This document shows, piece by piece, positions 12,022 to 60,345 of a stretch of 64,000 bases of DNA. The DNA is taken from assembly GCA_035235625.1 (NCBI GenBank), contig CP141144.1:48234014-48298013 (forward strand). Reading direction: 5' to 3'. Below the pieces are notes generated by a model. That model was given only the letters and a program-made list of their open reading frames with translations. It searched no databases and was not told the DNA's origin. Made by a program: the position numbers and the translations under genes. Each line of letters opens with the position of its first letter. The stretch's first letter is position 1. The stretch comes from Saururus chinensis. Taxonomy: Eukaryota > Streptophyta > Magnoliopsida > Piperales > Saururaceae.

Positions 12022-12339
12022 TGATGTGGACGGTTGTCCACGGGCAGGGAGCGGCACAGGGAGACCGGGAAAGGAGAGAGTGGATGACATGGCTATTGGA
12101 CAGAAAGAGGAGAGGCACAGAAGAAAGGGGAGAAGACAAAACAATAATTCACTTCATTCATAATCAAATCAGGGCACAACCCTTACACTTAAATAGATAA
12201 TCCTAATGGGCTCATTAACAAGTACCTAAGGCCCATTAGCATAATTAAAGGAAAACACTAATTACCTAATTAACCTAATTATTTAAATGCCCCTTATTAC
12301 ATAATTACCTAATAATAGGCCCTTAGGATGTTCACAACA
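12022..12339 (-). repeat. 3' LTR of gene-capturing copy 1
   Basis: 318-bp LTR on the minus strand, aligned throughout to 17,358-17,675. On the + strand it starts TGATGTGGACGG (one base off the usual TGTTGTGG) and ends TTCACAACA. Confidence 0.9.
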
Positions 12340-12380
12340 TTCCACCTCGCTTCCGCATCACCTCGTCCTCAAGGTGACCT
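12340..12380 (-). promoter_or_regulatory. Polypurine tract and shared 3' end block of copy 1
   Basis: On the minus strand, CACCTTGAGGACGAGGTGAT and then GCGGAAGCGAGGTGGAA, directly before the LTR. The purine-rich end would prime plus-strand synthesis. Copy 2 has the same block with few changes, which ties both copies to one replicating family. The CTTGAGGACGAGGTG string also resembles the extreme 3' coding end of many plant Ty3/gypsy pol genes. Confidence 0.75.
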
Positions 12381-13985
12381 AAAACTCCAAGCATTGGGCC
12401 CACCAAAGCTCCACTGTGAACAGCCAGTATGGAACCGTGGATGAGACACGCAGAATGATGGAGGTAGTGGGTCACTACTCATATGCAGATGTGCAGAAGC
12501 CAAACCAAACTTGATGGATGTGCAGTTAACTGAATCTAAGGGTAAGACATAGCTGTGGGCGGTAGAGACGGAAGATGAAGAAGGCGGAAGAGCAAAGGAG
12601 CTGGCCCGATGTGTTGGGTGTATGACAACATGGGGTGCCTACATAGGTCTCTAACAAGCGGGGTCACCATAGAGACTACAGGGCGCCCCAAGACTGCCCA
12701 TAGAGGGCAGCAAATAGCAGCAAAGTAGGCCCATAGAAGGCAACAATCAGCAGAGGCACGAGCGGTGTAACAGCCTTGGACATAGGTGACATATTGGACC
12801 CATGTGGCCACCCATATTCTAGAGCCCACAGAAGGCCCAATCCATGATGAAGCTGCTTATATACCTAGGTAGGATTGACTTACGAAAGTCCCACCCAAAC
12901 GGAAAGCCAAGTTGTAGTAAAGCCCAAGCCCAAGGCACATACGCACCACATAAAAGTTCAATGCCGACACATGTTGTGTAAGTGTCCAGCATACTGAAGA
13001 AGGCAGGCCTGTCTTGCATAACTTTTTGTTGGTGGAAAATTGGTGAAAACAAGGATGCATACCCAAATTTTAACCAAGGTAAAAGGAAGGTGGGTCTCAC
13101 GTTGGCTGTTACTAGATCTGAAGCCCGGAAAGCTTGGGCATGGACCGGACAGGAGTCCCCTTTGTTGCTGAATCGCCGGAGATCAGGATGGCAAGCGGTC
13201 CCGTGGCCAATGAAAAGCATAACCATATGGGAAAGAACATCCCGATCTACTAGGGCCAACTCCCGGAAGATCCGGGTCAAGCTCTGCCTTTCTGTTCGCA
13301 GCTCTGAGCTCCTGCCATGGCGTCCACCGGAGACACCCAGGTGGTCGCCGCCGCCGCGCCGGCGGCCAAGCCAAAGGCAGCCGTTGCCACAAAGGAGCCC
13401 CGCGCTACCGCCGCTCACCCTCCCTACCTTGAGATGGTCAGGGGGGAAAGCGTGTTTCAGGAGGAGTTTGGCTCGAGCCCGGATGTCCCCAAGCCTCGCC
13501 GCCACCAAGCCTGTGTCGACAGCCATAGTGCGGAAGTCCAAGGTTGTTGCAAAGCCGAAGTTGGAAAGACTGAGCTGGGCCTTGCGATCGGCCATTATGG
13601 AGACAGGTAGTGTCGTGCCGGGTTATGAGGGGTGCGAGGTTCTTCCTGGTGAGGAGCGAGGGGAAGTATGTCTCAGTGAGGTAGTTGCACCGTGGCAGAA
13701 ATTGCATCGGGGAAGCTCCGTTCTGTGGAAGAAGTGATTGATCATAGGAGGTTGAAAGTGGGCTCCTTGCAGACGGTAGGGAGACGCCTAGTTTGGCCCA
13801 GAAGATCTAGCCGGCGTTGTGCAAGGAGGGAATGAGCAGGGTGACCATGGTGGCGGCGGACACTCGAACGCCTGACAGGACATGGGTCGTGATGGACCAG
13901 CCCTTGCGCTCCTTCACCAGCCACTCCCGCTCGCCGCTACCATTGCCATCCAACGGCCTTAACCTGCTCCTCGATGTAGATCAAT
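12381..13985. other. Captured or unidentified cargo of copy 1
   Basis: Internal cargo unrelated to that of copy 2, with GC content well above its surroundings from about 13,130 to 13,970. Long overlapping ORFs exist on both strands (12,819-13,595 minus, 258 codons; 12,982-13,737 plus, 251 codons), but neither shows a known domain and they exclude each other. The recognisable part is an H1-like start at 13,317. High local GC and codon-like composition suggest several joined exon pieces of host genes whose origin could not be read. Confidence 0.5.
13317..13439 (+). pseudogene. Histone H1-like N-terminal fragment (captured)
   Basis: A start codon in good context (CTGCCATGGCG) opens a frame with an Ala/Lys/Pro-rich tail ending HPPYLEMV. 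This is the junction of the basic tail and the globular winged-helix domain seen in plant histone H1 (HPPY.EMI). The expected globular domain does not follow; the frame continues into unrelated sequence and stops at 13,610. It lies antisense to the host retroelement. The match is short and low in complexity apart from HPPYLEM, so H1 origin is probable but not certain. Confidence 0.5.
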
Positions 13986-13989
13986 TTTC

Positions 13990-16900
13990 TCAGATTTAAT
14001 TAGTGCTCAAATTTGTAAAATACTTATTTTTAGCCCAAAATTTTTTTTTACACCCCATTAGTTCATTAAGTGTACCCCAAGCCCTACTTAAAAGGAAAAG
14101 GGCTGAGCCATTTCCATTTTAGGAATAGGCTGGGAGGAGGTGATTAAGGTCTAGTTCCACAATTAGGCCCGAATTAGAAGGGATTAAGATATGTTCTTCC
14201 TTAATTAAGCTTAAACCCTAGATCTTCTCCTAATCCATTCTTAATCCAACATTTTTCCTTTTATTTGATTCAATTTCAAGCATCAAAGTCACTGATTTAC
14301 TCCCTTACTTCAAACCCTACTTATCAAAATTCATTTTTTATGCTTAACAAACCCTAGATCGAAGATTTCTTCAAAGTTTTCAATGTTAAATCGATTTTTA
14401 ATGGAGTTTAACTTAGATACTATGTTTTTGGAATGTTTCCAAGAAGAGTGAAGGTCAAATCTAAATCCAAACAAGTGACAAGTAATGGGTCTTTAAATCT
14501 CAATTTTCTTATGGTAAAATCTCGATTTTTATAGTTTATTTGAAATGGGTTTTGCTTGATTTAGTGCTTTAATGGTGGGATTAGTAAATGTTAATTTATT
14601 ATTCCAATTTCTTAGGGTTTTGCCTTTAGATGGTGTAGATTAACATTCTGGAAAGTTTGATGAAGTTTTAATGGTGTTTGTGTATATAGATGAAGGTTTT
14701 AAGTTGTTTTAATGAAGTCTTGATTTTGAAATTTGAAATGAAGAAGAAGGTCAAAACTGTTGTGTTGGCGATCAAATGGCCTGACAGGGCAATCGATCGG
14801 CAACACTATATTTTTGACTAATTTCCTTTATAACCAATCAAACGGCCTTGCTTGGCGTTCGAACGACTACACTACAGTTTTGCTATTTTCGAATTTATGC
14901 TCATTTCAATATTTTTACTCTATTTAATGCTTCTAATGGTTATGGAAAATGTATTATATTGAATTGGGCTACTGGAGGTGTAGAATTGATGATGAAAGTG
15001 TATGGATTATGTATAGGTGTTATCTTGTGGCATCATATTGTGTTGATAATCATACATGTTGATATTGAAGTACATTGAAACTTAGAATGTTAGAATTCTT
15101 GTGATTAGCATGTGTTTTCGGTAGAGATGTTATATAGCAAATGGTGAGATGTGTTCTCTTATAATATGGATGGTTTATGGAAAATTAATATGATCATGTT
15201 GTGGCTTATTGTGTGGAAAATCATGCTCGTGGGAATGAGCATTCGATTCGACATTGAGGGATTTTAAGTTTTATGATGGATTTTGTCTTGATTTCAGTTT
15301 GAATTCATTATTTCAAATGTGTTATGCATGCATAAGTTGCCTTGTGAGTTTATATCAAAACATTGATTGTATGCTTAGGATATGCATGAACACACACGTA
15401 TGGGGAATCTGCTATGACATTTTAGTTAATTATGATGCATAAAGAAACTGATTAGGACCACGTTTCATGTGTTGGAATCGACGTAGGTTTTGCTCACGGA
15501 TGTATCATGCTAGCATGCATCATGGATTGTTATTCATGGATGAAGTTTTACTGATGTTTAACCGGAATTAACCGATTGTATGGAATGCTTGAGATTGCAT
15601 GCCAGATTAATTACTCGGTAAATTAATCGAAACTTGGTTGGTCCGAAAGAACATATTTTCGATTTAAGTTCCTGTGGCAACGTGTATACTCCCCGGGTTG
15701 AGTATAGAGAGATGGAATCATGTGAGGACGAGTTGTGTACTTGTCTTGCAGATTTGAGATTTTTATTATGAGTGTCATCTGGACCCTAAAAATCCAGAGT
15801 GGTATGCCTTGTGCACCCGCTACCACATGTTCTAGGGTTCCTTGTGTGGGAATTCGGGCTCTCCCCTCCATAGGAGATGTCCTTCGACGAACACCCCTGT
15901 TCTAGATTCTCTGTGTGAGAATGAGACATCCTTGGCTAGGATCGTCCAGGGCAAGCAGCTTTAGGAATTGACAACCCCGGCTCTTTTACATTTCCTATGT
16001 GAAAATTTGACCGTGTCTTGCCTTCATGGCCTTGACTGCTTCTTGCCTGTGTGACAATACTTGTGTTTACTCCTTGATGGAGGCATTCACCATTTGTATT
16101 GATGCATGTCTATTATGAATGCTATGCATGATTGTGTATCATGTGTTTAACACGTTCGTCATGCAGGGTGAATGAATTTGATGCGATATGAATGCATGAT
16201 CAGAAATAGTGTGATTGAGATACTATTATGCAGGTTTATGTGATATGAATACATGATCAGAAATGGTGTGGTTAAGACACTATTATGCAGGTTTATGTGA
16301 TATGAATGCATGATCAGAAATGGTGTGGTTGAGACACTATTATGCAGGTTGATATGATATGAATGCATAATCAGAAATGGTGTGATTGAGACACTATTAT
16401 GGAGGTTTATGTGATATGAATGCATGATCAGGAATGATGTGATTAAGACACTATTATGTAGGTTTATATGATATGAATGTAAGATCAGAATGTGGTATAA
16501 CATGCTAATCTTAGATTTAATTTGTTTCATTGCCATGCCGTTGTGTTTTCTGGTGATTATAGTTATATTCAAACCATTATTGAGTTTTTATACTCACCCC
16601 ACTTTCTTGTTTTGTTTTGGGGCTGTGTGGCGTGACACGTAGATGGACAGGATCCTCTATATGAGGAAAGGTCGGAGAGAGCTTGGGAGTAGTCGTAGAG
16701 GCTCCTAATTTTGCATGTCTCTTTATTTACCTTGTTTTGATGTTAGAACCTTGTGGACGATCCTTGTCTTAGATTTGTGATATACTATGTCTTTAGTTTT
16801 CACTTGAAACGTTGTTTTGGAGCCAGGTGTGTGGCTATGAATTATTAGTATGTGGGTTGAGATTATGGTTTAATTTTGAGTTTAACTCTTTTGGTTCTAC

Positions 16901-17071
16901 CTATTTACTCTTGCTCAAAGTAGTGTGTAAACTCCCGTAAATTAGATTGCTTGAAGTTAGGGCACAAGTCTTCCACTATTTTCCTCAATCACTTTCAATC
17001 CGTCGCCCCCGTGCAATGGTTTGGCCCTTGGACTGGGTTTGGCTCGGGTCGGGCAGTGCCGGGGTGTGACA
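13990..17071 (+). mobile_element. Large LTR-like unit A, 5'-truncated
   Basis: Same family as unit B (18,798-22,267, opposite strand). It is homologous from a point about 327 bp inside the start of B and ends with the family terminus GTGACA at 17,071, after GGGTCGGGCAGTGCCGGGGT. Shared landmarks are the GTGTACCCCAAGCCCTACTT start region, the clustered CGAACG/CGATCG motifs at about 14,770-14,870, and a minisatellite at 16,160-16,490. It carries no recognisable coding sequence. The first 327 bp and any target duplication are missing. It lies inside gene-capturing copy 1. Confidence 0.75.
16160..16490. repeat. 57-bp minisatellite in unit A
   Basis: About six tandem copies of a 57-bp unit containing GATATGAATGCATGATCAGA and GAGACACTATTATGCAGGTT. 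On the minus strand this produces a 137-codon ORF with a repeated peptide, which is a by-product of the repeat. Unit B has a related array. Confidence 0.85.
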
Positions 17072-17079
17072 TGCCAAGC

Positions 17080-17475
17080 TCTTCGGAACTGATTATCCTT
17101 GCAGTGAAAGGCCTTTCGTCGAAATTGATGCACCTTCTTCTTCCATGCAAAAGATGGTGGAGTAGCCGCTCTTGGTGGAGGAGGTGGGGCAACCCGGGGC
17201 GGCACCTTGGCTGTTTGGGATGCCGCCATGGACATTACCATCCTCATCAAATCCTTGAGCCTCTCTTCAACCTTTGTGAGCAAAGCAGTAATCTCTGCCT
17301 GTGGATTCGGCGGCTCTGGCACGTGTGGTGGCCAAGGATTGATGGCTCCAATACCAATGTTGTGGACGGTTGTCCACGGGTAGAGAGCGGCGCAAGGAGG
17401 CCGGGAAAGGGGAGAGTGGACTGCATGGCCATCCAACAGAAAGGGGAGAGGCATAGAAGAAAGGGGAGAAGACAA
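17080..17475 (-). CDS. Short LTR-derived ORF of the gene-capturing family (copy 1)
   Basis: A minus-strand ORF starting inside the 5' LTR and reading through the primer-binding site into the interior. The stretch WTTVHNIGIGAINPWPP, then PNPQAEITALLTKVEERL and SMAASQTAKVPPRVAPPPPP, is matched closely by copy 2 at 56,455-56,810. It therefore predates the different cargo. The middle part could form a short coiled coil, followed by a Pro-rich linker. It may be the start of an old gag or simply leader sequence that happens to be open; no gag domain is visible. Downstream the frame runs into unit A. Confidence 0.5.
17344..17357 (-). promoter_or_regulatory. Primer-binding site, initiator tRNA-Met (copy 1)
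   Basis: Minus strand TTGGTATTGGAGCC directly after the LTR end ACA. This is close to the plant tRNA-iMet complement TGGTATCAGAGC, with changes at two positions. Confidence 0.8.
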
Positions 17476-17675
17476 GACAATAAGTCACTTCATTCATAAT
17501 CAAATTAGGGCACAACCCTTACACTTAAATAGATAATCCTAATGGGCTCACTAACAGGTACCTAAGGCCCATTAGCATAATTAAAGCAAAATATTAATTA
17601 CCTAATTAACATAATTATCTAAACACCCCTTATTACATAATTACCTAATAATAGGCCCTTAGAACATTCACAACA
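17358..17675 (-). repeat. 5' LTR of gene-capturing copy 1
   Basis: 318-bp LTR. On the minus strand it starts TGTTGTGAATGTTCTAAGGG and ends GACAACCGTCCACAACA. It is flanked on its outer side by the target duplication AACCA. Confidence 0.9.
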
Positions 17676-17680
17676 AACCA

Positions 17681-18459: not shown

Positions 18460-19368
18460 TTATTTGTAACGACCAGTAATTTTGATGTTGATACCTTATT
18501 TATTTAATTTCATATTCCGCCTAGTAAATTTAAGTATAAAATTTGTTTAGATAAAAAGTAAATTTTGAATCTGTCGTAGCGGTATTAAGAACTTGAAAAC
18601 CGAGGTCGGATAAGAGGGAAAAGATTTTTCAAAGATTTATTTTAAATCTATACCGAATTTTGAATTATGAGTTAACGTGCACTTGTAGGTCATACTTTAA
18701 TAAAAGCTCAATTCCGGAATACAAATTTTTATTGGTTAGGTGGCCTAATTTAATTAAAAATTTATTAATTAAAAAGGGATTTGGATGAGACTAAACCTGT
18801 CACGCCCTGGCGATGCCCGACCCGAGCCGAACCCGGTCCAAGGGCCGGTCAAGCGCGCGGGGGCGACGAAGGAAGATTGAGAAACGATCTAGCGGAAGAC
18901 TTAACCCTAACCACGGGCGATTAACAGAAATACGGAGTACGCACAATCCTTTGAGTAAGAGTAAATAAAGAAGAAAGAAAAAGTGTTGCTTATCATAAAG
19001 TAAACAACAATCTCAAACCCACAAGCTTAGTTAAGTAAAGCCCACACCGGCTCAAAATAAGTCATAAGCATCACAACTGTAAAATGTGACATAAATCCAA
19101 AACAACAAAGAACCCTACACAAATGTTCTAAACATAAGCATAAAACTAAAGAAGATAAGTTACACAACGATCTCCAAGATCATATCCAAGCCGTCTCCGA
19201 CCTTTCCTCAAAGAGGAGATCCTGTCCTTCTACGTGTCGTACCACGCAGCCCCAAATCAAAACACAAGAAAGAGGGGTGAGTTTAACAAACTCAGCAATG
19301 GTTTTAGTATCACTATCAACGTCGAAAATACGATAGCATAGAAATAAGATCATTCAGATCAAAGATTT

Positions 19369-19775
19369 ACATGATGCATAATCAACCTGCATGGATGTAT
19401 CTCTAACATACATATTCCCACATGCATTATATCAAAATCAACCTTCTTAGATGTATCTCTAACATACATATTCCCACATGCATCATCTCAAAATCAACTT
19501 GCATGGATGTATCTCTAACATACATATTCTCACATGCATCATATCAAAATCAACCTGCATGGATGTATCTCTAACATACATATTCCCACATGCATCCTAT
19601 CAAATAAACCTGCATTGATGTATCTCTAACATACATATTCCCACATGCATTATACCAAAATCAACCTGCATGGATATATCTCTAACATACATATTCCCAC
19701 ATGCATTATATCATAATCAACCTGCATGAATGTATCTCTAACATCCATATTTCATCATGCATTATATCATCACAA
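19369..19775. repeat. 55-bp minisatellite in unit B
   Basis: About seven tandem copies of a 55-bp unit with CATGGATGTATCTCTAACAT and ACATATTCCCACATGCAT. Only some positions match the unit A array, although both occupy the same place in the LTR, so the arrays have turned over separately. Confidence 0.85.
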
Positions 19776-20999
19776 CCTCCATCACGGAGTAATCACACAT
19801 TAATGTCACACAGACGGGAGCATAGACAAGGCCATGAAGGCGTGTCATGGTCCAAAATTCTACACAAGAATTAAAGAAAGATCGGGGTTGTCAATCCCTA
19901 ATGTTGCTCGCCCTGGACGATCCTGGCCAAAGATGTCCCATTCTCACACAGAGAATCTAGAGCAGGGGTGTTTGCCCAGAGACATCTCCTGTGGAGGGAA
20001 GAGCCTGAGTTCTCACACAGAGAACCCTAGAACACGTGGTAGCGGGGTGCATACGGCATACCACACTAGATTCTCAGGGTCCAGATGACACTCATAATAA
20101 TATTCTCACAATCCGCAAGACAAGTACACAACTCGTCCCCACATAATCCCATTCAATTAGGCTCAACCCGGGGAGTGCACTCGTTCTACACAGGAACTCA
20201 AATTAAAATATGTCCTTTCGGACCAATCAACTTACGATTAATCCACGACCAATCAATCCGGCACACAATTCCATCACATTGCATCCAATCGGTCAAATTC
20301 AATTAATCACGATGAAGCCTCAATTGGAAATCTATTTTCATGATGCATGCAACATGGTACATACGTGGGCAAGGCATACATGAATCCTAATCCATGATAA
20401 GTGCGCTCATCAGCCCTTAATGCATCATTCATAATCACAATATCAAGCTTCAACATCATCATTTAACCCCACATGTGTGTGTACCTAGTAGAAGCATTTC
20501 ACAAAATACATGCCAACATGCTTGAAATTAAACTCACTACCACACTACAATGTGAATTTCCATCTAAACATGAATTCCAGCGGAAATCATAGAAGAAGAA
20601 TCGTTAAAATCATATCTCAATTCAAAACTCAACCACAAAGGCTAAACACATATAACATCACTCATTTCATCATGGAGTCATGGCATTCACCAACATCCAC
20701 ACACAACTAACCACAATCTATCATGACAAATCAGTCCAATAATAGGTTGTAGTCCTACTGAAAATATGTTTAACCAAAGGGAATCAACCATTCATAATTT
20801 CAAGATAACGATTCCAACATCATGCCACAAAACATAAATCATTCCACAAATTTCTAAGCATATATCTCAATTCTATAACCTCCATAGCATGCCTTTCCAA
20901 TAGCATAACATAGCTTAAAACACACCACATTCATATGAAATTGGCAAGCTAAAGTGGAATCATCAAAATAAACATCATGCATTAGAAAAACAATCTGCT

Positions 21000-21180
21000 G
21001 TGTAGCCGTTCGAATGCCCTTCAGGCCGTTCGATCTGTTAAACGCAAAAATTTGAAATTTACAGTTTTGCTGTTCGAACGCCTAGCAGGCCGTTCGATCG
21101 GCTGAACTAGAAAAGTGTTGTTCTGGCAGTGTTGCCGTTCGAACGCCCAGAAGGGCCGTTCGAACGCCAACAAGGCAGAA
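21000..21180. repeat. GCCGTTCGAACGCC motif cluster in unit B
   Basis: Five or six occurrences of the palindrome-containing motif CCGTTCGAACGCC or variants (CGTTCGATC, CGTTCGAATG) within 180 bp, each followed by a short AGGCCG/AAGG string. Unit A has a decayed version at 14,770-14,870. Possible protein-binding cluster close to the LTR promoter. Confidence 0.6.
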
Positions 21181-22308
21181 CAATCCATCTTCTTCCTTTC
21201 TCAAATTCAAACCGAAACACCATTGATAACACTTCAAATCCACATCTAACACCCTAATCATCATCAAAAGTCCTTATTGACTTCCAGAACATCAAACCAT
21301 ATCATAATAATGCAAAGCCCTAAGAAATCGGGATTAAATAATTCCATTTTCTAATCTTACCATTAACACACCAAATCAAACAACTCATTTCGAAATAAGC
21401 CAAAAATAAAGAATTTTACCATGGATAAACAGAGATTTTGAAGACCCATTACCTCAGTACTTGATTAAGCTCGGATTGAAGAGTCACCCTTCTTGAAAGC
21501 CTTGAAAACACAATGAGTTTGAGTTAAACTCTAATGGAAATCGATTTACTCAAGAAATCCCTAATTAAATCTTAGATCTAGGGCTTGTTGGTAGTAAAAA
21601 TCGAACTTTGAATGTTAGGGTTTGTAGTAAAACACAAATCAGTAGCTTTTGATGCCCAAAAATGAATTGAATTAAGGGGAAAATGGTAGATTTGGAAGAG
21701 ATTAAGAAGAAAGTAGGGTTTAGTGCTTAATTAGAGTAAGCTTACCTTAATCGGCTTTTAATTCGGGCTTAAGTGGGGATTAGGCCAGCCCTCCCTCCTT
21801 AGCCTATTCCCAAAAATGGAAATGGCTCAGGTCTGCCATTTTATAGTAAGGGTTGGGGTATGCATAGGTAAGTTTTGGGGTGTAAATAGGAAAAGTAGGC
21901 TAAAAATGGATATTTTACAAATTTAAGCACTAATTAAGTCTAGAAAAATTCTAAAATTTTTTGTATAACCTTAGGTAGATGTCTAGGTTCATTTGACCAA
22001 AAAATAAAATTTTCGACGGTGGGGCCCATAGGGGTCCCGCCAAAACCCTAATTTTTGGGAAAATAGTGAAAATTCTGAAAAATCCCAAAAATTCACATTT
22101 GGTTTAAAATCTCTTAAAACCACTAATATTGAAGTTGATTTTGGTTAAAACCATCACAAACACTATTTATTTACGAAATCACCGAATAAGATTAGAAAAT
22201 ACGTTAATCTCACGATAACCAATAATTAAAGAAAACCAAAACCGATTTAGAGATGAGGGTCCTTACAAAACCTTTGGGGAGCCCTAGCTTAATAGAGAAT
22301 TAGATGTT

Positions 22309-22318
22309 ATAAAAAGGA
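22309..22318 (+). promoter_or_regulatory. Candidate TATA box of unit C
   Basis: TATAAAAAGG followed within 40 bp by a purine-rich leader (AGAGAGAGAACATAGGGAG). This is the usual layout of an LTR U3/R junction. Confidence 0.4.
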
Positions 22319-24779: not shown

Positions 24780-27585
24780 GAAAGATCAAGGAGTCAGGAA
24801 GCAGATTGGATCTTCATCAGATGAGGAGGAAGAGTCAATGCACAATGCATCACCAGTTGCGAACAAGTTTATGCCTTGATTTAAACCTAAAATTGAATTG
24901 AATGCATTTATTGGCCAATTGAATATTGAGGAATTCCTGGATTGGTTAGTTGAAATTGAAAATTACTTTTACTATATGGATGTACTTGAGGATATGAAAT
25001 GTAAAGTAGTTGCTTTCAAATCGAAAAGTGGGGCATCTGCCTAGTGGAATCAAATTCAACAAGATTGAATTAGCAAGGGAAAACATCAGATTAATTCTTG
25101 GCCTAGAATGAAGAAAATGCTAAGAGATATGTTCCTTTATGTCGAATTTGAGCAATCCTTGTTTTAGAAATATCAAGATTGCAAACAACATTCAAATTTA
25201 GTTGCTGACTATATAGCAAAATTCCATAGATTATCAACTAGAAATAGATTGAATGAATCTGAAGCACAAAAGGTACAAAGGTTCCTAGGAGGGCTAAAGT
25301 ATGATATGCAATTGAAGTTAGCTACAAAATCTATTGGAATAGTAATTGAGGCCATACAAGCAGCCCTGCGAAATGAATCCCTGATAGAACAAGCTAGACA
25401 TCGCATCATTCATTATTCTAGATTGATGGGAGAAGGAACTAGTGAACCACAAGCTAGACATAAGGAATCAATGGAAAGTGAGGTAGGAACTAATCGAAGG
25501 GAGAATCATAAGACTATACCCACTTTTTCAATACCTGCAACAAAGAAGATTGACTATGCCAAACCAAAACCTAATTCTTGCTTGAAGTGCAAGAAGGAAG
25601 GACATTATTCTTCATAATGTCCTTTAAGGTCCAAAGTGATGGCTTGTCATCAGGTTTTGGTTGGCGAAGAAAATAGTGGAGCTAGTGAGAATGAAGAGGA
25701 TCAAGAAGAAGTGTATGGTGATCATGAAGAGGAGAACTACAATGAATTAGTTATGGTAACTCAAAAGTTACTATTTACTCCTAAGCAGTTCATTCCTTCT
25801 CAGAGGCACAATTTGTTCTTTACTATTGGAACAATTCAAAACTCAAATTATAGAGTAATTGTTGATGGAGGCTGTATTGAAAATTTGATTGCAAAGTCAA
25901 TTGTGGATAAGCTGAAATTGGTTACTACTCCTCATCTTCAACCTTATACTATAGGTTGGATTAAAGAGGTTGGAGAGATTAAAATTCAAGAACAATGAAT
26001 TATACCATTTTCTATTGGGAAAACATATAGAGCTGATATACTATGTGATGTGTTGGACATGTCAATTTGTCATCTTCTATTAGGGAGGCCATGGCAGTTT
26101 GATACTTGCATTATGTATGATGGGCATGCTAATACTATTATATTTGAATTCAAAGGCAAAGTTATAGTTTTGCATCCACAAACTGTGACTGCCAAAATAT
26201 CTACTTATTCATCCTTGGATCAACTATTACAATCACAATCAACAAGTTCTATAAAGTCACAAGAAGGTATTAAAATTAGTTCATGTCACAAGAAGGATAA
26301 GAAACATAAAAAGGCCCTTATTGTTGCTTGTAATATCTCCTCAGCTCTAAGAACTGGATTGGTGGCTCTATCTTATGTGTACAGAATTGCATTTACAGTC
26401 ACTGATAGTTCACCTTCACATTTTAACAAAGGTGTACAAGATTTATTACATGAGTTTGTAGGTTTGATTAATGATGGCATACCTTTGACCCTACCACCTA
26501 TGCGCAACATACAACATAGAATTGACTTAGTTCCTAGTGTTACTCTTCCACATCTTCCTCACTATAGAATGAGTCCTATGGAGCATGCTGAATTATAGAA
26601 ACAAGTGCAATATTTGCTTAATAGGGGGTTGATCAAGAGTATAAGTCCTGTTGCAGTGCCTACAATATTGGTTCCTAAGAAGGATGATACATGAAGAATA
26701 TGTGTGGATTCTAAAGCAATAATTAAAATCACTGTCAAATATAGATTCCCAATTTTCGGGTTAGAAGACATGTTAGACATGCTTGCAGGTGCTCAAGTGT
26801 TTTCTAAAGTTGATTTAAGGTCCAAATATTATCAAATAAGAATGCAGCTTGGTGATGAGTGGAAGACAACATTTCAGACTAAGGATGACCTCTATGAATA
26901 GTTGGTGATGCCATTTGGCTTAACAAATTCACCAAGTAAATTTATGAGGCTCATGACTTAGGTTTTGAAACCTCTATTAGGGAAGTCAGTGGTTGTTTAT
27001 TTCAATGATAAACTCATCTATAGTTCAAATGAAACTCAGCATTTAAAACATTTGAAGGAGGTGTTTCAGCTGTTGCAAGAGAATTGTTTGCATATTAACT
27101 TGAAGGAAAGCATTTTATGGATGAACAACAATCTTTTTGGGTTATATTGTTTGAAAAGAGGGCCAGAAAGTTGATAACAACAAAATTAAGGCCATTACTA
27201 TCTAGCCAATACGTAGCAGTCAACTGAATTAAGAAGTTTTCTAGGGCTGACAACTTTCTATAGGAGATTTATACAAGGTTTTAGCTCTTTGGCTACTCCA
27301 CTTACTGAGTGCTTGAAGAAATGTTAGTTTAAATGACAGACTTCTCAATAGAAGAGTTTTAAGTTGTTGAAAACAAAATTGATGGCAACACCTACTTTAG
27401 CTCTAGCTGACTTTTTTAAAGTCTTTGAAGTGGATTGTGATGCTTCTATTCAGGGTATTGGAGTTGTCTTGTCTCAAGAAGGAAGACCAGTGGCATTTTA
27501 TAGCCAAACGTCAAGTGAGGCTAGGTCAAAATGGTCAACTTACAAGTTAGAACTCTATGCTCTAGTCTAATTCTTGAAGCATTGG
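24780..27585 (+). pseudogene. Ty3/gypsy gag-pol, 5' part (gag, protease, RT, RNase H start)
   Basis: Decayed plus-strand polyprotein. Gag (24,880-25,620) includes NRLNESEAQKVQRFLGGLKY and a CCHC knuckle CLKCKKEGHYSS, then an in-frame TAA, then CP. The protease region (25,800-26,040) has VDGGCIENLIAKSIVDKL, with DGG where DSG/DTG is usual. RT (26,560-27,170) has [25 protein letters not shown] and VVYFNDKLIY, where the YxDD catalytic box reads YFND. RNase H starts at 27,420 ([16 protein letters not shown]) and stops abruptly after LKHW at 27,585, where a GA-rich tract begins. Several stops make it inactive. The missing C-terminal half matches the inverted piece at 36,700-38,156. Confidence 0.9.
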
Positions 27586-27860
27586 CGAGAGAGAGAAAAG
27601 AGTAAAGAGAGAGAAAAGAGACAGGGGGAGGAGAGAGAGAGGGAGAGGAGAGATAGGGAGTGGAGAGAGATGAGGACAGAGAGTAAAGAGAGAGGGGAGA
27701 GAGAGAGGGAGGAGAGAGAGTTAGGAGGGGATAGAGATGATGAGAGAGAGGGTAAAGAGGAATGGAGGGTAGAGAGAGAGTGAAGAGAGAGAGGGTAGAG
27801 ATAGAGGGTACAAAGAGAGAGGGTAGATATGAGAGGAAGAGAGAGAGAATGTTGTGAGAG
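27586..27860. repeat. GA-rich low-complexity tract in CACTA-1
   Basis: Almost pure (GA)n/(GGA)n, directly adjoining the gypsy codons at 27,585. Any ORFs here (27,574-27,783) are composition artefacts. Confidence 0.85.
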
Positions 27861-36699: not shown

Positions 36700-38156
36700 C
36701 CTCGAGCTTATATTCAAGGATCAGAATCAACTACCATATTATCATAACAAGGAGTAAGATCACAGATGTTGAAGACATTAGAAATTGTAGACCTGGCAGT
36801 AGAGCAACAATATAAGCATTGGGTCCCCACTTTCTTAACACCCGACATGGTCCTATCTTTCGAGCTTGCAATTTTCCCTGTTGTCAAGATGGCATCCTGT
36901 CCTTGCTTAAATGTACCATAACAAGCAAAATGTATTTCTTTTTGATGAGTATCAATTTGAGAGTTGTACTCGGCATTGGAAGCCATAATCTTGTTTCTGA
37001 CATAAGCATGCAAATTTGCAAATTGTGCCATAAATGACACTGTTGTCTGTGATTCACCTGACTATTTTGGACATAGGGCAACATCCACTGTATGGTGAGG
37101 CATGAAGCCATAAACAATTTGAAATGGAGCTAATCTAATGGTCCTATTAACAGTTGAGTTATATGCAAAATCAGCCTGACTAATAACTGAATCCCACTGT
37201 TTAGGAGTCCCCCCTGACAAATATCTCAGTAATTTGCCCAAAATCCTATTTGTTACTTCAGTTTGCCCATCCGTCAGAGGATGGCATGTACTACTATATT
37301 GTAAAGTGGTGCCCATCCTATCCTACAAAGTTTTCCAAAAAAGTACTCAAGAATCTACTAACTCCATCTGAGGTAATTGTAAGAGGAATACCATGTAATC
37401 TCACAACTTCTCTGAAGAACAAACCAACTGCATGTATTGCATCAACACTTTTCTTACAATGAATGAAGTGCACATATTTGGAAAACCTATCTACCACAAC
37501 AAATATTGAATCAAAACCTTTTCGAGTCTTAGGGAGACCTAGAACAAAATCCATACTAAAATCTTCCCATGGTTGATTAGGTACTAGAAGGGGTGAATAT
37601 AATCCAGCATTAGAAGCCCCTCCTTTGTATTGTTGATATGTAACACACTTTTTCACACACTTTTGCACATCCTTCTGTAATTGAGGCCAGTAATACCTCT
37701 GTTTTACCAATGCCAAGGTTTTGTCTCTGCCCACATGTCCAGCTAGACCACCACCATGAAGTTGCCTAATAAGTAACATTCACAGAGAACAAGCTGGAAT
37801 ATATAAAAGGTGTCCCTTGTACAAGAATGCTTCATTTAATGAGAATTCACCCTAAGGTTATTGAGTCAAAAGACATTGTTGTCACTTTTCCTGAAAAGCT
37901 TTATCCTCCTAGTAAAGCTTTTTTATTTCATCAAATCCAAAGCATGAAGCTAAAAGAACATGTACAAGAGCAACTCTCCTGCTAAGAGCATAAGCTACTT
38001 TGTTGAGTTTTCCAGACTTGTGTCTAATCACAAATGAATAATCTTGCAGCTCACCAATCCACCTAGCAAGAAGTCTATCCAACTTGGACTGATTATGCAA
38101 ATGCTTCAATGAGTCATGATCAGTGTTCAAATTCTCACACAATTTGAGACACTCTT
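36700..38156 (-). pseudogene. Ty3/gypsy pol, 3' part (RNase H end, integrase), inverted
   Basis: Minus-strand continuation of a gypsy polyprotein. It starts within RNase H (NTDHDSLKHLHNQSKLDRLL, then DYSFVIRHKSGKLNKVAYALSR). After a gap come the integrase HHCC part ([31 protein letters not shown]), the catalytic core ([42 protein letters not shown], where SDR/SDRD is usual) and HPLTDGQTEVTNRILG. The C-terminal domain ends near 36,714. Frameshifts at about 37,790-37,900, 37,320 and 37,060 inactivate it. Its first residues follow directly, allowing for decay, on the last residues of the plus-strand piece ending at 27,585. No second copy of either half was found. Confidence 0.88.
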
Positions 38157-52789: not shown

Positions 52790-53020
52790 CATTTTGCAAA
52801 ATGAGCGAATGAAAACTTTATATTAATCATTATAATGATTTAGTATGACAACGAAAGGACATTGTATGCCACAATTTTATTCAACAAAAACATGACAGGG
52901 AGTCTTTTGAGAAATATATAGTTGAATGTGTTATTCATAGCAATAACGACTCGTTAAGCAATGACACATAACTAGAATGGGAAAAGAAAATGCAACAGTA
53001 CTACGTAGCATTCAGAAGTT

Positions 53021-54987: not shown

Positions 54988-55284
54988 TCTGCCTGGAATC
55001 GTATGAGTTCGGACTATTACTTGCGGCCTTTCATATACATGCTAAAGTTAAAATAAAGGACTATGTTACTATTACTTCAAGCAAAGCATCGACCTTTTGC
55101 TCGGTTTACTGATATCTCAAGCATAGTATCTGGCAGGTACATGATGGAAAAATGTTTTGCTGATGAATGAAAGAAAATGTTTTGCTGACCAATGCTCCCT
55201 TACCAGCTCCGTGACCAGCCCATATAGAGCCTAAACCTGGTTAGTATATAAGAGGGCAGTTGTGCATACTGGTTGGGGGGACGT
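54988..55284 (-). promoter_or_regulatory. Short upstream region of the TPR gene
   Basis: About 300 bp between the ATG and the chromovirus LTR. On the minus strand a TATA-like GTATATGAAAGG lies at about 55,027-55,038, only 40-50 bp before the ATG. No other element stands out. Confidence 0.35.
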
Positions 55285-56123
55285 TGTTCACACAGACTGG
55301 TCAGTCCAGATGTCACAGACGCAGAACTTTGCATAGCTTCTACACCCGTGATGGCCTGGCTGGACAACGCAGCCAGCAACCTGCTCTCGCGACCTTCCTA
55401 CTCGTATGCGCAAGGGGAAATAAACAATCAGCAAGGAATACCTACTCTGGTGCAAAGAGGCTCCACCCAATACTATATAACTCAGTCTGTCGGTTACAAT
55501 GGCAGGGAGAGGGTAGGGGCTGATCAACCAAGTCGTTGTACTCAATGTCTCAGAGATCTCTGGTTTGTCTTCACAACATCACCATCAGCCATGGCCGCCT
55601 TACTCTCTTCCCTTATATAGACTCAGCCTTAGTTGGTCTATATCGTACTAGGAGTACAAGAACCCAACCCATACAAGAGTCTCTCCCTGTCTAACTCTCC
55701 TAGCCCAATTAAGGGCATCCCAACACAAATTAGGAAACTAGCAAGGAGTCCGTCTTTGACTAGGAGTCCAGCGCCCTCCAGCTTCTAGAGTTCGTCCATC
55801 CAGGGAAACCTACTACCATCGCTCCCACTTGCGCTAGGAGTCTGGCTGCGCTGCATGAAGGGATCCTAGCTGCCTTAGGAGTCCGCCCCTAAGGGGTTGT
55901 AGCGCCTAGCTAGCCACCAAGAGTCCTACCCACATAGGGACCCTTCCTCAGCCTGCTCCGCAAGGCGAGCACTCATCCGGGACTGCTCCAAAGCTGCTCC
56001 TAACATCCTTCTAAGCCCAAGAAGCTGCCTAGGCTATCTGTCGCCTAGGCTAACTTGGTTGTCCGCTGCCAAGTATAGGAGGTAGTCTCCCCCTTCTCTA
56101 AGGAAAAAGTTAAGGGGCTAACA
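55285..56123 (-). repeat. Chromovirus (Ty3/gypsy) 3' LTR
   Basis: On the minus strand it begins TGTTAGCCCCTTAACT right after a polypurine tract (GGTTGGGGGAGGCC, 56,124-56,137) and probably ends GTGTGAACA at 55,285; the outer border is the less certain one. A TATA box CTATATAAGG lies on the minus strand at about 55,610-55,620, the expected U3/R position. The coding frame of the upstream chromodomain runs into the LTR and stops at 56,110-56,112. Confidence 0.7.
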
Positions 56124-56137
56124 GGCCTCCCCCAACC
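56124..56137 (-). promoter_or_regulatory. Polypurine tract of the chromovirus
   Basis: Minus strand GGTTGGGGGAGGCC, directly before the LTR start TGTTAG; primer for plus-strand synthesis. Confidence 0.7.
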
Positions 56138-56207
56138 AATTTACTTGATGTCTTCGTCGAGGCTAAGCACTCTGCGACTTTGTCTTCAAACTGCCATAAC
56201 GCGACGT

Positions 56208-56593
56208 TGTTGTGCACATTCTAGGGCTCTGTTGTGCACGTTCTAAGACTGCCACTGGAGCTACATGCTAGAATAATTAGTACTTTAATTAGTATTAAGA
56301 AATAAGGGTATTTAAGTAATTTGGTTAATTAGGTAATTAGTTATTTATGTTAATTATGCTAATGGGCCTTATGTGCTTGTTAGTGAGCCCATTAGTTAAC
56401 TTATTTAAATGTAAGGGCTATGCCCTAAGTGGATGAGTGAATGATTAATTATCTGTGCTTCTCCCCTTTCTTCTGTGCTTCTCCCCTTTCTGTCTGATGG
56501 CCATGTCATCCACTTTCCCCTTTCCCGGCCTCCCTGCACCGCCCCCATCACCTATGCCGGCTATCGCGCTGTTGTGGACAACCGTCCACAACA
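56208..56593 (+). repeat. 5' LTR of gene-capturing copy 2, with 22-bp end duplication
   Basis: Begins with a 22-bp block (56,208-56,229: TGTTGTGCACATTC then TAGGGCTC) followed by the regular LTR start TGTTGTGCACGTTCTAAGAC at 56,230. Ends GACAACCGTCCACAACA. The target duplication lies outside the extra block, so the block was part of the integrating DNA. Confidence 0.9.
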
Positions 56594-56847
56594 TTGGTAT
56601 CGGAGCCGTTACTCCTTGGCTACCATACATACCAGAGCCGCCGAATCCACAGGCAGAGATGAACGCTTTGCTCACGAAGGTTGAAGCATTGCTCACGAAG
56701 GTTGAAGAGAGGCTTGAGGATGTAATGAGGATCTTAATGTCCATGGCGGCATCCCAGGTAGCAAAGGTGCCACCCCAAGCCGCCCCACCTCCTCCACCAT
56801 CAGCGGATTCGCCACCAGTCCTCCCTGGAGCTCCGCACCATGTCTGA
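56455..56847 (+). CDS. Short LTR-derived ORF of the gene-capturing family (copy 2)
   Basis: Starts inside the 5' LTR and reads through the primer-binding site. WTTVHNIGIGAVTPWLP, EPPNPQAEMNALLTKVEALL and SMAASQVAKVPPQAAPPPPP match copy 1 closely, with an in-frame duplication of the LLTKVE segment. It ends at 56,847, overlapping the start codon of the RuvB-like frame (ATG at 56,840) by a few bases. Whether it is made as protein is unknown. Conservation between two copies of different age suggests either selection or shared recent origin. Confidence 0.5.
   Translation: MLLPFLLCFSPFCLMAMSSTFPFPGLPAPPPSPMPAIALLWTTVHNIGIGAVTPWLPYIPEPPNPQAEMNALLTKVEALLTKVEERLEDVMRILMSMAASQVAKVPPQAAPPPPPSADSPPVLPGAPHHV
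56594..56607 (+). promoter_or_regulatory. Primer-binding site, initiator tRNA-Met (copy 2)
   Basis: TTGGTATCGGAGCC, one change from the TGGTATCAGAGC consensus, directly after the LTR end. Confidence 0.85.
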
Positions 56848-57110
56848 GGGCATGGTCGACCAGCTTGCCACCAGCGAGTCCGCCAGCGTCATCCTTCAGA
56901 TGATCCGCGAGGGTCGTATCACCAGATGCGCTGTCCTCCTGGCCGGTCAGCCTGGTACCGGCAAGACCATCATCGCCATGGGGCTCGCCAAGCCTCTCGG
57001 TGCAGAGACCCTCTTCGCCATCGATGGGAAGGTGGTGGAGGTCCAGATTGATGGCCCAGCCATTTCTGGCATTGCGGCCAAGACAAGGAAGCCGCCTCTT
57101 GCTGCCGACA
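56840..57110 (+). pseudogene. RuvB-like AAA+ ATPase (RuvBL2/TIP49b type) fragment, captured
   Basis: A fragment of a RuvB-like helicase, a nuclear AAA+ ATPase of INO80/SWR1/TIP60 and R2TP complexes. It reads MSEGMVDQLATSESASVILQ, MIREGRITRCAVLLAGQPGT then GKT (complete Walker A, GQPGTGKT), GLAKPLGAETLFA, then jumps to IDGKVVEVQIDGPAISG. Compared with the family, about 55 residues between the GAETPF segment and the EGEVVEVQID segment are missing, with the frame kept. Homology ends near 57,110. Walker B and the C-terminal ATPase half are absent, so no activity is expected. The in-frame internal loss may come from aberrant splicing or template jumping. Confidence 0.85.
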
Positions 57111-57249
57111 CCGGCAAAATCAGAGTAGTAGGCCGCGACACGGGAAGATGCCGACGAGAGGGCCGATCTGCGCTGATGCCTCAGATGGGCATTCGTCTCT
57201 AGTTCTTGACAGCCCCTTCCTTGAAGATGGAAGTTCCATCCAGGAGTTC

Positions 57250-57740
57250 AAGAGAGCAACCTGTTTCTCTGTCAAACACAGGGAACCAAACATCCAACAG
57301 TCGCTCCCTCGCCTGACCACCGGCCTACACCTCTGGCCACCGCTGTCGCCGTCGTCTCTATCCTCTCCGCCATTCCATTCCACAACATTGGTACACCACC
57401 TGCGGGGCCAACTGGGGCAAGCTGTTCTGGAGGGTATGCATGCTGCTAGATTTGATCGGAACGGAGATCAAGGGCCTATTCCGTCGAAACGACCTGCACC
57501 CCAGTCGCTAGAGCGGCCGGCCGTCGGCCCCCTGGTCGCAGTCGCTCACTCGCTCACACATCCAAAGTCCAGGTCTTTCCAACAGTCGCTCCCTCGACTG
57601 ACCTCCAGCCTCCACCACCATCCTCTGCCACCGTCGTCTCCATCCTCTCCGCCGTTCCATTCCACTGTCTCGCCAGCCTTCCACGGTGCTCTGCCTCCAG
57701 TAGCTCCGTCGGCATCTCCTCCCACAGAACAACCGTGATC
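57250..57740 (+). other. Pro/Ser-rich segment with a direct repeat, in copy 2
   Basis: GC-rich open stretch of unknown origin. A block of about 90 bp (57,291-57,382) recurs at 57,579-57,665, both starting CAACAGTCGCTCCCTCG and containing CCGTCGTCTC and ATCCTCTCCGCC. It encodes a QQSLPRLT...SSPPFHST repeat in one frame. May be 5' untranslated or exon pieces of another captured gene. Confidence 0.5.
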
Positions 57741-58290
57741 TTCGGCTATGGAGAATCTTTTCCTTCTCCAGCCAGCGGAAAAGATTTTGCTTGAGAGATC
57801 TTTGGTCAATTTGGAGAATTTTTTCCAAACTGGAGATGAAGCTTCCCTGCTTCGACGGGATTTTCGGGACCGGTTTTCCCATATCAGTATAGAAGATGTG
57901 TGGCATCCCAGTATAGAAGATGTGCGGCATCCTTGGATTTACGGCTGTGATAAACTCAATCGCTGGGGGCTAGTGTGGAAGGATTTTTATTTTCATCGGA
58001 ATGTACGGGGGATTCGCCACTCTGGTCCAAGCAGGGGAGGTGACCTTTCCCCACTCTGGGTCGCCGTGACTTCCACCATGGGACAGCCGATGGCCACCAC
58101 CCAGCACCGTCTGCCGCCACTGGCCCATGCTTCAGTCATCTGGGCTGGACTTTTGTCTCCGCATTCTGTCGAAAATTTCAATGCACTTCCAGCCTCAGTC
58201 CGCTGCTCCCGCATCGCATGCTACTGGGTTGTCGTTAGCAAACTATGTTTGATGAAAATGGAAGCCTTCTAGCCTCCCAACGATTGTCCA
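57740..58290 (+). other. Unidentified open segment before the F-box frame, in copy 2
   Basis: An ORF at 57,748-58,272 (174 codons) begins MENLFLLQPAEKILLERSLV. It contains a small internal duplication (SIEDVWHPSIEDVRHP) and shows no known domain. It could be a captured exon set or leader sequence of the F-box cargo. Confidence 0.4.
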
Positions 58291-58470
58291 TTGTTCCACA
58301 ACAAATCCTTCCCTCATGCCTACGGGATAAGCCACAGGTTGTTCAACTCTGCCAGGAATTCTATCCGGGCCAATTTGACGTCGACCATGGGGGGTGTTCT
58401 CTACGATCACCATCTGTTCGACGAATTGCTCCAGAGTTTTCAGGCCATCACCAAAAATCAAAGAACGATG

Positions 58471-59720
58471 GAAGGAACCCATGACAGAATCAGCCAGCTC
58501 CCTGATGTAGTCCAGCATCAAATCCTTTCTCTGTTACCCATCAAATCTCTGGTCAGAGCTGGAGTCCTCTCCAGAAGTTGGAACATCTTACTGAAGGAGC
58601 TACAATTACACACTCTTGATCTCGACTTCAGTGAGGAGATTTCATCAGGAAAACCCCTGGGTGAGTTGGTGGGCTCCATCAACCTGTGTCTTCACCTCCA
58701 TGGAGGTAACAGGGTAAGGAGGTTCCATCTTTTGTTTTACCCATCTGTTAATTGTAACAATGATGTTGAGAATTGGGTTCAGTTTGCTGTGGACAAAGGA
58801 GTAGAGGAGCTTGAAGTTGATTGTGGATATGAATATGGACCATTAAGTACTAGAGAAGCATATGTGGATGAAGAAAAAAAGTGATTCAAGCTGCCTGTTT
58901 GTCTTTTTGGCTGTGATTCACTAACCCGCGTCAAAATAAGTCTTTTTGATTTCAGCCTCCCATCAGACTTCACTGGGTTCAGCTCACTCACAGAGCTTTG
59001 TCTCCAACAAGTGAACATGACTGATGAAGTGTTTGAGAGAATAATCATCATGTGCCCCTCTCTTGAAATATTAAATTTGAGGGAGGTCAATCCCCTGGGT
59101 TTCATTAAAATCTCTTCTCCAAATTTACGGCTTAAGTTCCTTACAATTGCGGTTGATGCAGTTGATATTGAAATAGACGCTCCGCATCTCACATTATTTC
59201 ATTTCAGTGGTGACTCGTATGATTGCTCATTACAGAACCTCTCTTCTTTGACGGATGCCATCATTTGTTCAGTAGGTATAGATTGTTATAATCTTGGTTA
59301 CGGTCGAACGAAAATTTTGGCAAAGATCAGCCATGTCATGATTCTGACTGTATGTACCATGGCTCTCCTGGGCATCATAACAACTGAGGAATTGGAGCCA
59401 GAAGATTTGCCAATTTCACTTCCCAATTTGCAGGAACTGCAGATACTGTTTGATGGGCTGCTAGACAACTATCTTACTGGTTTCTACTGTTTCTGTCGGC
59501 ACTATGCTCTTCCTTTACTTGAGAGACATTTCATAGCGCTTCACCCCAGTGATGTCCGTTATAGGATGGAGGAAGGTAGACAAGAACGAGGCTTCCCTCC
59601 AGATCATATATTATGCAACCTCAGGATAGTTAAGATAAATGGCTTTCATTGTCGCGGAAGTGAAATTTTGTTGGTGGATTTCCTTGGACAAAAAGGAAGG
59701 AGACTGTTACGTCCAACCTT
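58471..59720 (+). pseudogene. F-box/LRR/FBD protein, near-complete captured reading frame
   Basis: One frame from ATG 58,471 (open further up to 58,291) to about 59,720, broken by a single in-frame TGA at 58,882-58,884. The F-box (about 58,480-58,605) has DRISQLPDVVQHQILSLLPI and LSRSWNILL. Leucine-rich segments follow (FSSLTELCLQQVNMTDEVFE, CPSLEILNLREV, SPNLRLKFLTI), then an FBD-like end (NLRIVKINGF.CRGSEILLVDFL). Such proteins are substrate adaptors of SCF ubiquitin ligases that pair with SKP1. Plant genes of this type usually have introns in the LRR/FBD part; none is seen here, pointing to capture from mRNA. After 59,720 the frame runs into unrelated sequence. Without readthrough only the F-box half could be made. 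Confidence 0.85.
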
Positions 59721-59942
59721 GCCTCCATCTATATGTCACCAGCCTCGGCCCTGGAAAAGTATGCTACTGCTATATGCAAGGTTATGGTTGTGGAAGAGTA
59801 TGCCTTGATTTTGGAGGTTCAGGTTCTGGTCCTTGGACTCGTCTTGAGGTCTCTAGCATTTGCTTGTGACTCGGCAGCATTTTCCATTCAAGACCGGCTG
59901 TTTCGACCAGCGCTATGGTGGGCCTAGTGTTTGGCGTTTTCA

Positions 59943-59981
59943 GTCACCTTGAGGACGAGGTGATTCAGAAGCGTGGTGGAA
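59943..59981 (+). promoter_or_regulatory. Polypurine tract and shared 3' end block of copy 2
   Basis: CACCTTGAGGACGAGGTGAT, then TCAGAAGCGTGGTGGAA directly before the 3' LTR. Same as copy 1 with few changes. Confidence 0.75.
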
Positions 59982-60345
59982 TGTTGTGCACGTTCTAAGA
60001 CTGCCACTGGAGCTACATGCTAGGGTAATTAGTGCTTTAATTAGTATTATGAAATAAGGGTATTTAAGTAATTTAGTTAATTAGGTAATTAGTTATTTAT
60101 GTTAATTATGCTAATGGGCCTTAGGTGCTTGTTAGTGAGCCTATTAGTTAGCCTATTTAAATGTAAGGGTTATGCCCTAAGTAGATGAGTGAATGATTAA
60201 TTGTTTGTGCTTCTCCCCTTTCTTCTGTGTTTCTCCCCTTTCTGTCTGATGGTCATGTCATCCACTCTCCCCTTTCCCGACCTCCCTGCGCCGCCCCCAT
60301 CACCTAAGCCGGCTACCGCGCTGTTGTGGACAACCGTCCGCAACA
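59982..60345 (+). repeat. 3' LTR of gene-capturing copy 2
   Basis: 364 bp, TGTTGTGCACGTTCTAAGAC to GACAACCGTCCGCAACA, followed by the target duplication GACGT. Lacks the 22-bp extra block of the 5' LTR. Confidence 0.9.

Follow-up and report, generated by a model that had tools for sequence, protein, structure and literature searches.

Can a retrotransposon family keep its ends and change the host genes carried between them? The question is raised by a 64,000-nucleotide (nt) stretch of the Saururus chinensis genome (hereafter the window; contig CP141144.1, C5:48234014-48298013), in which a sequence-only reading had described two long terminal repeat (LTR) elements, here called eA and eB, as copies of one non-autonomous family with different cargo, and had proposed that such a family would be a 'dedicated exon-shuffling vehicle'. 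Here we compare these two elements with 13 further members from the genome (516 Mb, 11 contigs). The comparison points, with a probability that we put at roughly 0.8, to an LTR family without gag–pol that derives from a Ty3/gypsy-type lineage, captured spliced host messenger RNA (mRNA) by template switching and had its cargo reshuffled. Repeated capture and shuffling thus stand, whereas a specialised function is not indicated: a dedicated vehicle is possible but unproven, and a parasitic element that often switches templates is enough to account for the data.

Constant ends around changing interiors

The genome search with LTR, primer binding site and 3′ end that the sequence-only reading had called for recovered the family across the assembly. 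A 29-base pattern of the 3′ end, with up to 3 mismatches allowed, matched at 254 places (141 + 113), about 100 of which were given individually, and the reversed pattern, used as a control, matched the genome at none. A 5′-end pattern matched at 535 + 533 places and its control at none; the 5′ pattern also picks up related families that share this primer site. Searches with the eB and eA LTRs scored 40 of 1372 and 40 of 1517 candidate places, respectively. From 20 loci of 10 kb each, 13 further elements with two LTRs were taken (e31–e38, e42a, e42b, e44, e47 and e49), which together with eA and eB form a set of 15. Eight of the 20 loci gave no element: one LTR or none could be paired in L041, L043, L045, L046, L048 and L050, and L039/L040 contain the two LTRs of a single 18.8-kb stretch.

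All 15 elements have paired LTRs; pairs with TG..CA ends and a 5-bp target duplication characterize LTR retrotransposons. Fourteen have a primer site with at most 3 mismatches (e47 has none), and the 3′ tail is recognizable in all 15, with 1–10 mismatches of 33. Target duplications are perfect in ten elements and carry one mismatch in another, compared with about 0.04 perfect 5-bp duplications expected by chance over 15 elements; none was found for e33, e35, e37 and e44. The elements span about 2.6–5.7 kb (9.1 kb with a nested element included), and their LTRs diverge by 0.039–0.133 (Kimura two-parameter distance), presumably corresponding to about 1.5–5 million years at an assumed rate of 1.3e-8 per site per year. 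Between these ends, 46 of the 105 pairs of interiors have no common core block of 80 bp, and the remaining pairs share blocks in differing combinations. The constancy of LTR, primer site, leader and tail around varying host cargo is thereby borne out across the 15 elements, and a single interior in all copies, which would have contradicted the proposal, is not what we see.

The two elements in the window have the following features.

eB
56,208–60,345, plus strand: whole element
56,208–56,593, plus: 5′ LTR of 386 bp, in the long form, which starts with 22 additional bases
56,595–56,606, plus: primer binding site TGGTATCGGAGC, initiator-Met type
56,804–57,200, plus: captured piece of RuvBL2 (TIP49) with an internal gap of 36 codons
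57,555–58,452, plus: module of unassigned origin, common to e36 and e37 (86–87%) and partly to e38
58,444–59,684, plus: captured F-box/LRR piece, 96% identical to C1:55908066-55909309
59,672–59,870, plus: tail-side module, found over its whole length at 78–82% at eight places among the matches listed
59,951–59,981, plus: conserved 3′ tail with polypurine tract
59,982–60,345, plus: 3′ LTR, 364 bp, with GACGT outside both ends of the element

eA
12,022–17,675, minus strand: whole element
17,358–17,675, minus: 5′ LTR, 318 bp
17,345–17,356, minus: primer binding site TGGTATTGGAGC
13,950–17,075, no strand assigned: nested AT-rich insertion, ends approximate, with an inverted relative at 18,798–21,947
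12,820–13,900, minus: GC-rich block in the interior that is common among members of the eA subfamily, of unassigned origin and without a Pfam match
12,340–12,370, minus: conserved 3′ tail with polypurine tract
12,022–12,339, minus: 3′ LTR, 318 bp, target duplication AACCA

The shared architecture described by the sequence-only reading was confirmed in both. The LTRs are 90.3% identical in eA (318 bp each) and 94.2% identical over 364 bp in eB, the 3′ tail with its polypurine end is common to the two, and each copy is flanked by a perfect 5-bp target duplication, AACCA (in element sense, TGGTT) for eA and GACGT for eB. The primer sites differ from TGGTATCAGAGC by one mismatch in eB and two in eA; we take this type of site to be that of the initiator-methionine tRNA (tRNA-iMet). 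As the sequence-only reading would lead one to expect, a Pfam scan found no gag–pol domain in the 16 open reading frames (ORFs) of at least 115 amino acids (aa) of the two copies, six in eA and ten in eB. The interiors of eA and eB align only beside the 5′ LTR (76%, 223 bp) and beside the 3′ LTR (86%, 70 bp), but the contrast is exaggerated because about 3.1 kb of eA is a nested insertion.

That insertion, which also accounts for the greater length of eA, is 70% identical to its inverted relative and holds the sole Pfam match in eA (DUF3737, E = 0.0033, below the cut-off). It apparently begins with TGTCACACCCC in element sense, as a long solo LTR might, and contains direct repeats at 16,178–16,490 that step by multiples of 57 bp (86–90% identity). 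The GC-rich block, by contrast with its description as cargo of eA's own, recurs at many other places at 66–89% identity (40 of 112 candidates scored); one match is enclosed by a pair of eA-subfamily LTRs (C1:35160706-35163743), and three lie within 1.3 kb of an eA-subfamily LTR (C4:36862127, C5:30323643 and C6:6591417). Among the places scored with the eA LTR, eight close same-strand pairs span 2.1–3.1 kb, and the pair at C5:34016015-34025641 spans 9.6 kb. The 'H1-like' cargo reported for eA is unsupported: in the GC-rich ORFs of eA, sense and antisense alike, no Pfam family reached E ≤ 0.01. With its common block and its nested insertion, eA is a poor example of cargo exchange and seems to be a typical member of a subfamily that is older and more uniform; the finding rests on the eB subfamily.

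Several other observations concern these loci. The LTR start occurs in long and short forms 22 bp apart (56,208–56,229 in eB; also in L034, L036 and L038): eB and e38 have the long form in the 5′ LTR and the short form in the 3′ LTR, and e34 and e36 have them the other way round, although a single template is expected for both LTRs. At L042:975-9209, e42a and e42b, one of each subfamily, lie 1.5 kb apart in opposite orientation, and reverse transcriptase (975–2279) and integrase (5263–5838) pieces from another gypsy element lie on either side of e42a, which thus seems to be nested in that element. In the window, a chromodomain-like ORF, called by eye (60,313–60,528, minus), overlaps the 3′ end of eB. 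A 370-bp direct repeat without TG..CA ends (2,168–2,537 and 9,112–9,481) has 94% identity between copies 6.9 kb apart. Other gypsy fragments with reverse transcriptase and integrase sequence (26,434–27,591, plus; 37,215–37,818, minus) are 32–50% identical to proteins of the gag–pol element nested in e36, which is described below.

Host genes among the cargo

To identify the cargo, we scanned against Pfam every ORF of 115 aa or more that lies outside that nested gag–pol element (61 sense and 23 antisense, 84 in total). Host families scored above the curated cut-off in 12 of the 61 sense ORFs and in 1 of the 23 antisense ORFs, and are carried by nine of the 15 elements. About ten host gene families are represented (RuvBL2, F-box/LRR, importin beta-1, importin-5, PPR, ClpB, argininosuccinate synthase, DUF1005, a PA-domain protein and malate dehydrogenase), and several elements have two or three of them, as follows (above the cut-off unless stated).

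eB: TIP49 (RuvBL2) and F-box/LRR
e31: importin beta-1 (E = 2e-47)
e33: PPR and DUF1005
e34: PPR and importin; PPR and importin-5 by solved-structure search
e38 and e49: ClpB-type AAA
e42a: argininosuccinate synthase (E = 7e-38); DUF1005 below the cut-off
e44: PA domain
e47: importin repeat in sense and ClpB-type AAA in antisense; cytosolic malate dehydrogenase and importin-5 by solved-structure search
e32 and e35: PPR below the cut-off

Searches against solved structures agree for importin beta-1, argininosuccinate synthase, ClpB (E = 7.5e-107 to a solved chain) and RuvBL2. A protein search with the importin piece returned mainly plant relatives at moderate identity, and one with the F-box piece returned a single plant protein at 38%; cargo of the FBD-type F-box/LRR and PPR kinds likewise suggests a plant. 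In eB, the RuvBL and F-box/LRR cargo recognized from the letters alone was recovered by the domain search (TIP49, E = 4e-16; F-box/LRR, E = 1e-8 and 2e-15); the module between them (57,555–58,452) gave no Pfam match and no relative in the protein search.

The pieces occur in changing company. RuvBL2 and F-box sequences stand together in eB and at C1:28792942-28795859, RuvBL2 and importin at C6:3741861-3744571 and C3:19021792-19024536, each of which ends at a 3′-end match, and synthase and importin at C10:3114110-3115146. The ClpB block of e47 is inverted relative to those of e34, e36, e37, e38 and e49. The statement that cargo changes between copies thus holds for many pairs of interiors but not for every copy: the eB combination is repeated, and e32/e33 (94.1% over 3.8 kb) and e36/e37 (90.7% over 3.0 kb) match over their whole interiors as plain copies of one cargo. 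Such copies allowed substitutions to be counted by codon position. In the pairs e32/e33, e36/e37 and e38/e49, they are about evenly spread in eight of ten frames (for example, 15, 11, 12 and 54, 56, 65), and the two exceptions have small counts (9, 5, 3 and 3, 3, 9). No sign of selection keeping the captured reading frames was found in these ten frames, a pattern that speaks against a maintained chimeric protein.

At least two captured pieces are, as judged from match coordinates, without the introns of their matching loci. The synthase piece of e42a is continuous, whereas its best gene-like genomic match, C1:413666-419868, is split into six pieces at 92–100% identity. Three of the gaps (4,851 bp, 111 bp and a third of about 60–80 bp) lie within residues 137–255, over which e42a aligns to a solved synthase with only 1–2-residue gaps, so that these gaps represent introns; the other two (500 and 84 bp) lie beyond the reach of the structure. 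Likewise, the ClpB piece of e49 is continuous but split at C7:39209081-39211768 (77–87% identity). At the 400-bp gap of this locus, e49 aligns to a solved ClpB without a gap, and at the 156-bp gap three residues are missing; the other two ClpB gaps, of four in all, fall where coding sequence is missing and were excluded from the intron count. Because introns are absent from both pieces, capture of mRNA by template switching is indicated.

Two other candidates for intron loss proved to be coding deletions. In RuvBL2, a gap of about 105 bp and a 3-nt overlap make 108 nt, or 36 residues missing relative to solved RuvBL2. The importin beta-1 piece of e31, 96–97% identical to C3:30500961-30502625, has a 406-bp gap whose flanking match pieces overlap by 8 nt, making a deletion of 414 coding nt, or about 137 missing residues. 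This deletion is common to e31 and C6:5423307, and suggests a jump at an 8-nt match. The copy at C2:10816182-10817537 retains those nucleotides and has an 89-nt deletion of its own (7-nt overlap), so it does not represent a capture that kept an intron. Overlaps in the match coordinates recur at block borders (9 and 13 nt for F-box, 7–9 nt at borders 1162 and 1524 of the e34 query, 3 nt at the RuvBL2 deletion and 0 at the 5′ border of the synthase), but they are only suggestive of short-match jumps, as chance extension can give the same.

Proposed template switching and the alternatives

We propose that RNA of the family would be packaged and copied in trans by a related element with gag–pol. 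At short matches, the polymerase would switch to a co-packaged host mRNA and then back to element RNA, thereby replacing the middle of the element with pieces of spliced mRNA, while the ends, which are needed for priming and integration, would be kept. Further switches between two element RNAs would reshuffle the pieces, and the cargo would be a by-product that decays without selection. Template switching predicts constant ends, a free middle, cargo that is spliced and mostly sense, deletions where short repeats occur and modules that are exchanged, and would so explain all of these.

A candidate helper was found within e36. The gag–pol sequence there initially suggested that e36 is an autonomous, cargo-carrying member, but it belongs to a separate nested element (L036:1012-6341), which has LTRs of its own that agree at 304 of 315 sites, and its own duplication (GTGGA/GCGGA, one mismatch). 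The frames of this element are broken and encode domains of protease, reverse transcriptase, RNase H, integrase and SH3 type; its primer site, TTGGTATCAGAGC, and its tail match those of the family. Global alignment of its LTR to the eB and eA LTRs gave scores of 106 and 94.5, compared with a maximum of 56 in 100 shuffles each; in e38, the 237 bp that immediately follow the LTR match the leader of the nested element at 77%. Its pol is abundant, with matches of at least 88% among the 40 of 2807 candidates scored. The relative is likely the best candidate for a helper acting in trans. It carries gag–pol and not the captured genes, so the autonomous ancestor with these genes as normal content, which would have undermined repeated capture, is not what the readable relative represents.

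The homology of tail, LTR and leader to this element identifies the family as non-autonomous and derived from Ty3/gypsy. The gag–pol of a Ty3/gypsy element proper was found only in the nested element of e36 and in none of the 84 ORFs of the 15 carriers. Terminal-repeat retrotransposons in miniature (TRIMs) have LTRs of up to about 250 bp, a total length of about 1 kb and no coding content; large retrotransposon derivatives (LARDs) have LTRs of several kb and a long conserved noncoding interior; and terminal-repeat retrotransposons with gag (TR-GAGs) have an intact gag and no pol. The present LTRs of 318–386 bp (eA and eB) and elements of about 2.6–5.7 kb exceed the TRIM range, LTRs below 400 bp and variable interiors depart from LARDs, and no gag family, only leader homology, was found for a TR-GAG. 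Pack-MULEs have terminal inverted repeats and a 9-bp duplication, Helitrons have ends of their own, and both usually keep introns; here we found LTRs, 5-bp duplications and two captures without introns.

Several points weigh against this account. Splice sites and junctions were placed from match coordinates and not from donor letters, and the ClpB locus is only 77–87% identical to the captured piece. No credible host family was found in four of the 15 elements (eA, e36 outside its nested element, e37 and e42b). The contrast between sense and antisense is partly expected, as coding cargo yields long sense ORFs and the copies are not independent. Mobilization in trans by the gag–pol relative is something that we infer; its LTRs are only distantly alike, and the single copy read is frame-broken. 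Finally, simple mRNA template switching leaves unexplained the antisense ClpB piece and the absent primer site of e47. In that element (L047:4681-8313), the end of the 5′ LTR and the primer site are missing, the antisense piece begins right there, and the target duplication TTAAC is nevertheless perfect.

Tentatively, the family with its roughly 250 recognizable 3′ ends may be a persistent cargo-swapping system: its conserved ends would suffice for packaging and priming, its middle would be free to vary, and repeated switching onto spliced host mRNA and between element RNAs would go on yielding two- and three-gene chimaeras, at a per-family rate above that of other plant LTR families. Alternatively, a few old captures may have been followed by reassortment and decay of the same modules through recombination between copies. 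The whole interiors common to e32 and e33 (94%) and to e36 and e37 (91%), the recurrence of module borders (such as 1524 and 1162 of the e34 query, at many loci) and the many places with the GC-rich block of eA all fit this alternative, but about ten host genes in 15 elements need at least about ten captures. Moreover, donor identities of 96–97% (F-box and importin) stand beside LTR divergences of 5–6% in their carriers (eB and e31), so that in some cases little time seems to separate the capture from the carrier's insertion. We regard a small number of old captures as the less likely account of the present variety.

Capture at the DNA level, by ectopic recombination, gene conversion or nested insertion, appears quite improbable. 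Nested insertions do exist in the family (e36 and eA), and the inverted ClpB piece of e47 would suit such a route, but the intronless synthase and ClpB pieces, the sense orientation of host pieces in 12 of 13 ORFs with matches above the cut-off and the target duplications with at most one mismatch in 11 of the 15 carriers all favour passage through RNA. That the cargo is decayed gag–pol or GC-rich noncoding sequence resembling genes is very improbable: although 49 of the 61 sense ORFs have no host family above the cut-off and eA, e36, e37 and e42b lack a credible match, the importin beta-1, synthase and ClpB scores, together with 92–100% DNA identity to exon-split or tandem-arrayed loci, refute it for the named genes and leave it possible for the unmatched modules. 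The F-box donor, for example, adjoins related stretches at 78% identity, and at 70–97% in short pieces.

Relation to known gene-carrying elements

Template switching during reverse transcription is described as a capture mechanism in a review (PMC13317346). The classical case is Bs1 of maize, in which, according to the accounts available (Jin and Bennetzen 1994; Elrouby and Bureau 2001, 2010, via PMC13317346 and PMC4717578), pieces of three host genes form a chimeric gene that is transcribed and translated. Like Bs1, the present family holds exon-only pieces of several host genes between LTRs in a chimeric interior, the spliced exons being those of the synthase and ClpB pieces as judged from match coordinates; unlike Bs1, with its one three-gene set, its cargo differs between copies and the compared frames have no sign of selection. 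The plant gene-carrying TRIMs in the part of the survey consulted comprise 30 elements in seven subfamilies of 1,172–1,449 bp, two with exons of more than two genes, and include GmaRetroS15 with three genes (PMC4717578). These share with the present family the lack of coding capacity, the 5-bp duplications and the exon-only host pieces, but the elements described here are longer, with LTRs of 318–386 bp in eA and eB, and exchange modules within one family.

In maize, a survey listed 425 intact elements of 81 families with gene fragments from at least 189 captures and, under its conditions and as far as its text was available, no element that combined fragments of two or more standard nuclear genes (PMC2774510), whereas eB, e33, e34 and e47 each have pieces of at least two genes. 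The 672 and 1,343 LTR-captured genes of rice and sorghum, respectively, are a genome-wide tally, and the parts of that study consulted describe no single family exchanging cargo (PMC3726574). Closer in kind are the retroduplicated NLR genes of pepper, spliced copies of which about 72% lie in LTR elements without gag–pol, with capture attributed to activity in trans (PMC5664825); the available text also mentions single LTR elements with two or three genes. Spliced copies inside LTR elements without gag–pol are common to both systems, but the pepper copies are reported to be mostly of one subfamily (about 70%) and under purifying selection, whereas here many unrelated, truncated genes have evenly spread substitutions. 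Multi-gene elements as such are therefore not new, because soybean TRIMs (PMC4717578) and pepper LTR elements (PMC5664825) are reported to include them. The family is best called a case of Bs1/TRIM-type capture, set apart from the reports consulted by the number of captures in one family and the frequency of multi-gene chimaeras; a literature search, with subscription papers outside its range, recognized no report of such a family.

In the prior reports, as far as we could consult them, gene capture by plant LTR elements is mostly scattered over many families (Bs1, some TRIMs and the maize survey, where each element had one gene). One family with many captures and traceable donors would be a natural series for measuring how often plant reverse transcriptases switch templates, at which sites and at which matching sequences. 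Its main value is mechanistic, because the compared chimaeras look neutral, and the same series could reveal whether multi-gene chimaeras ever become genes.

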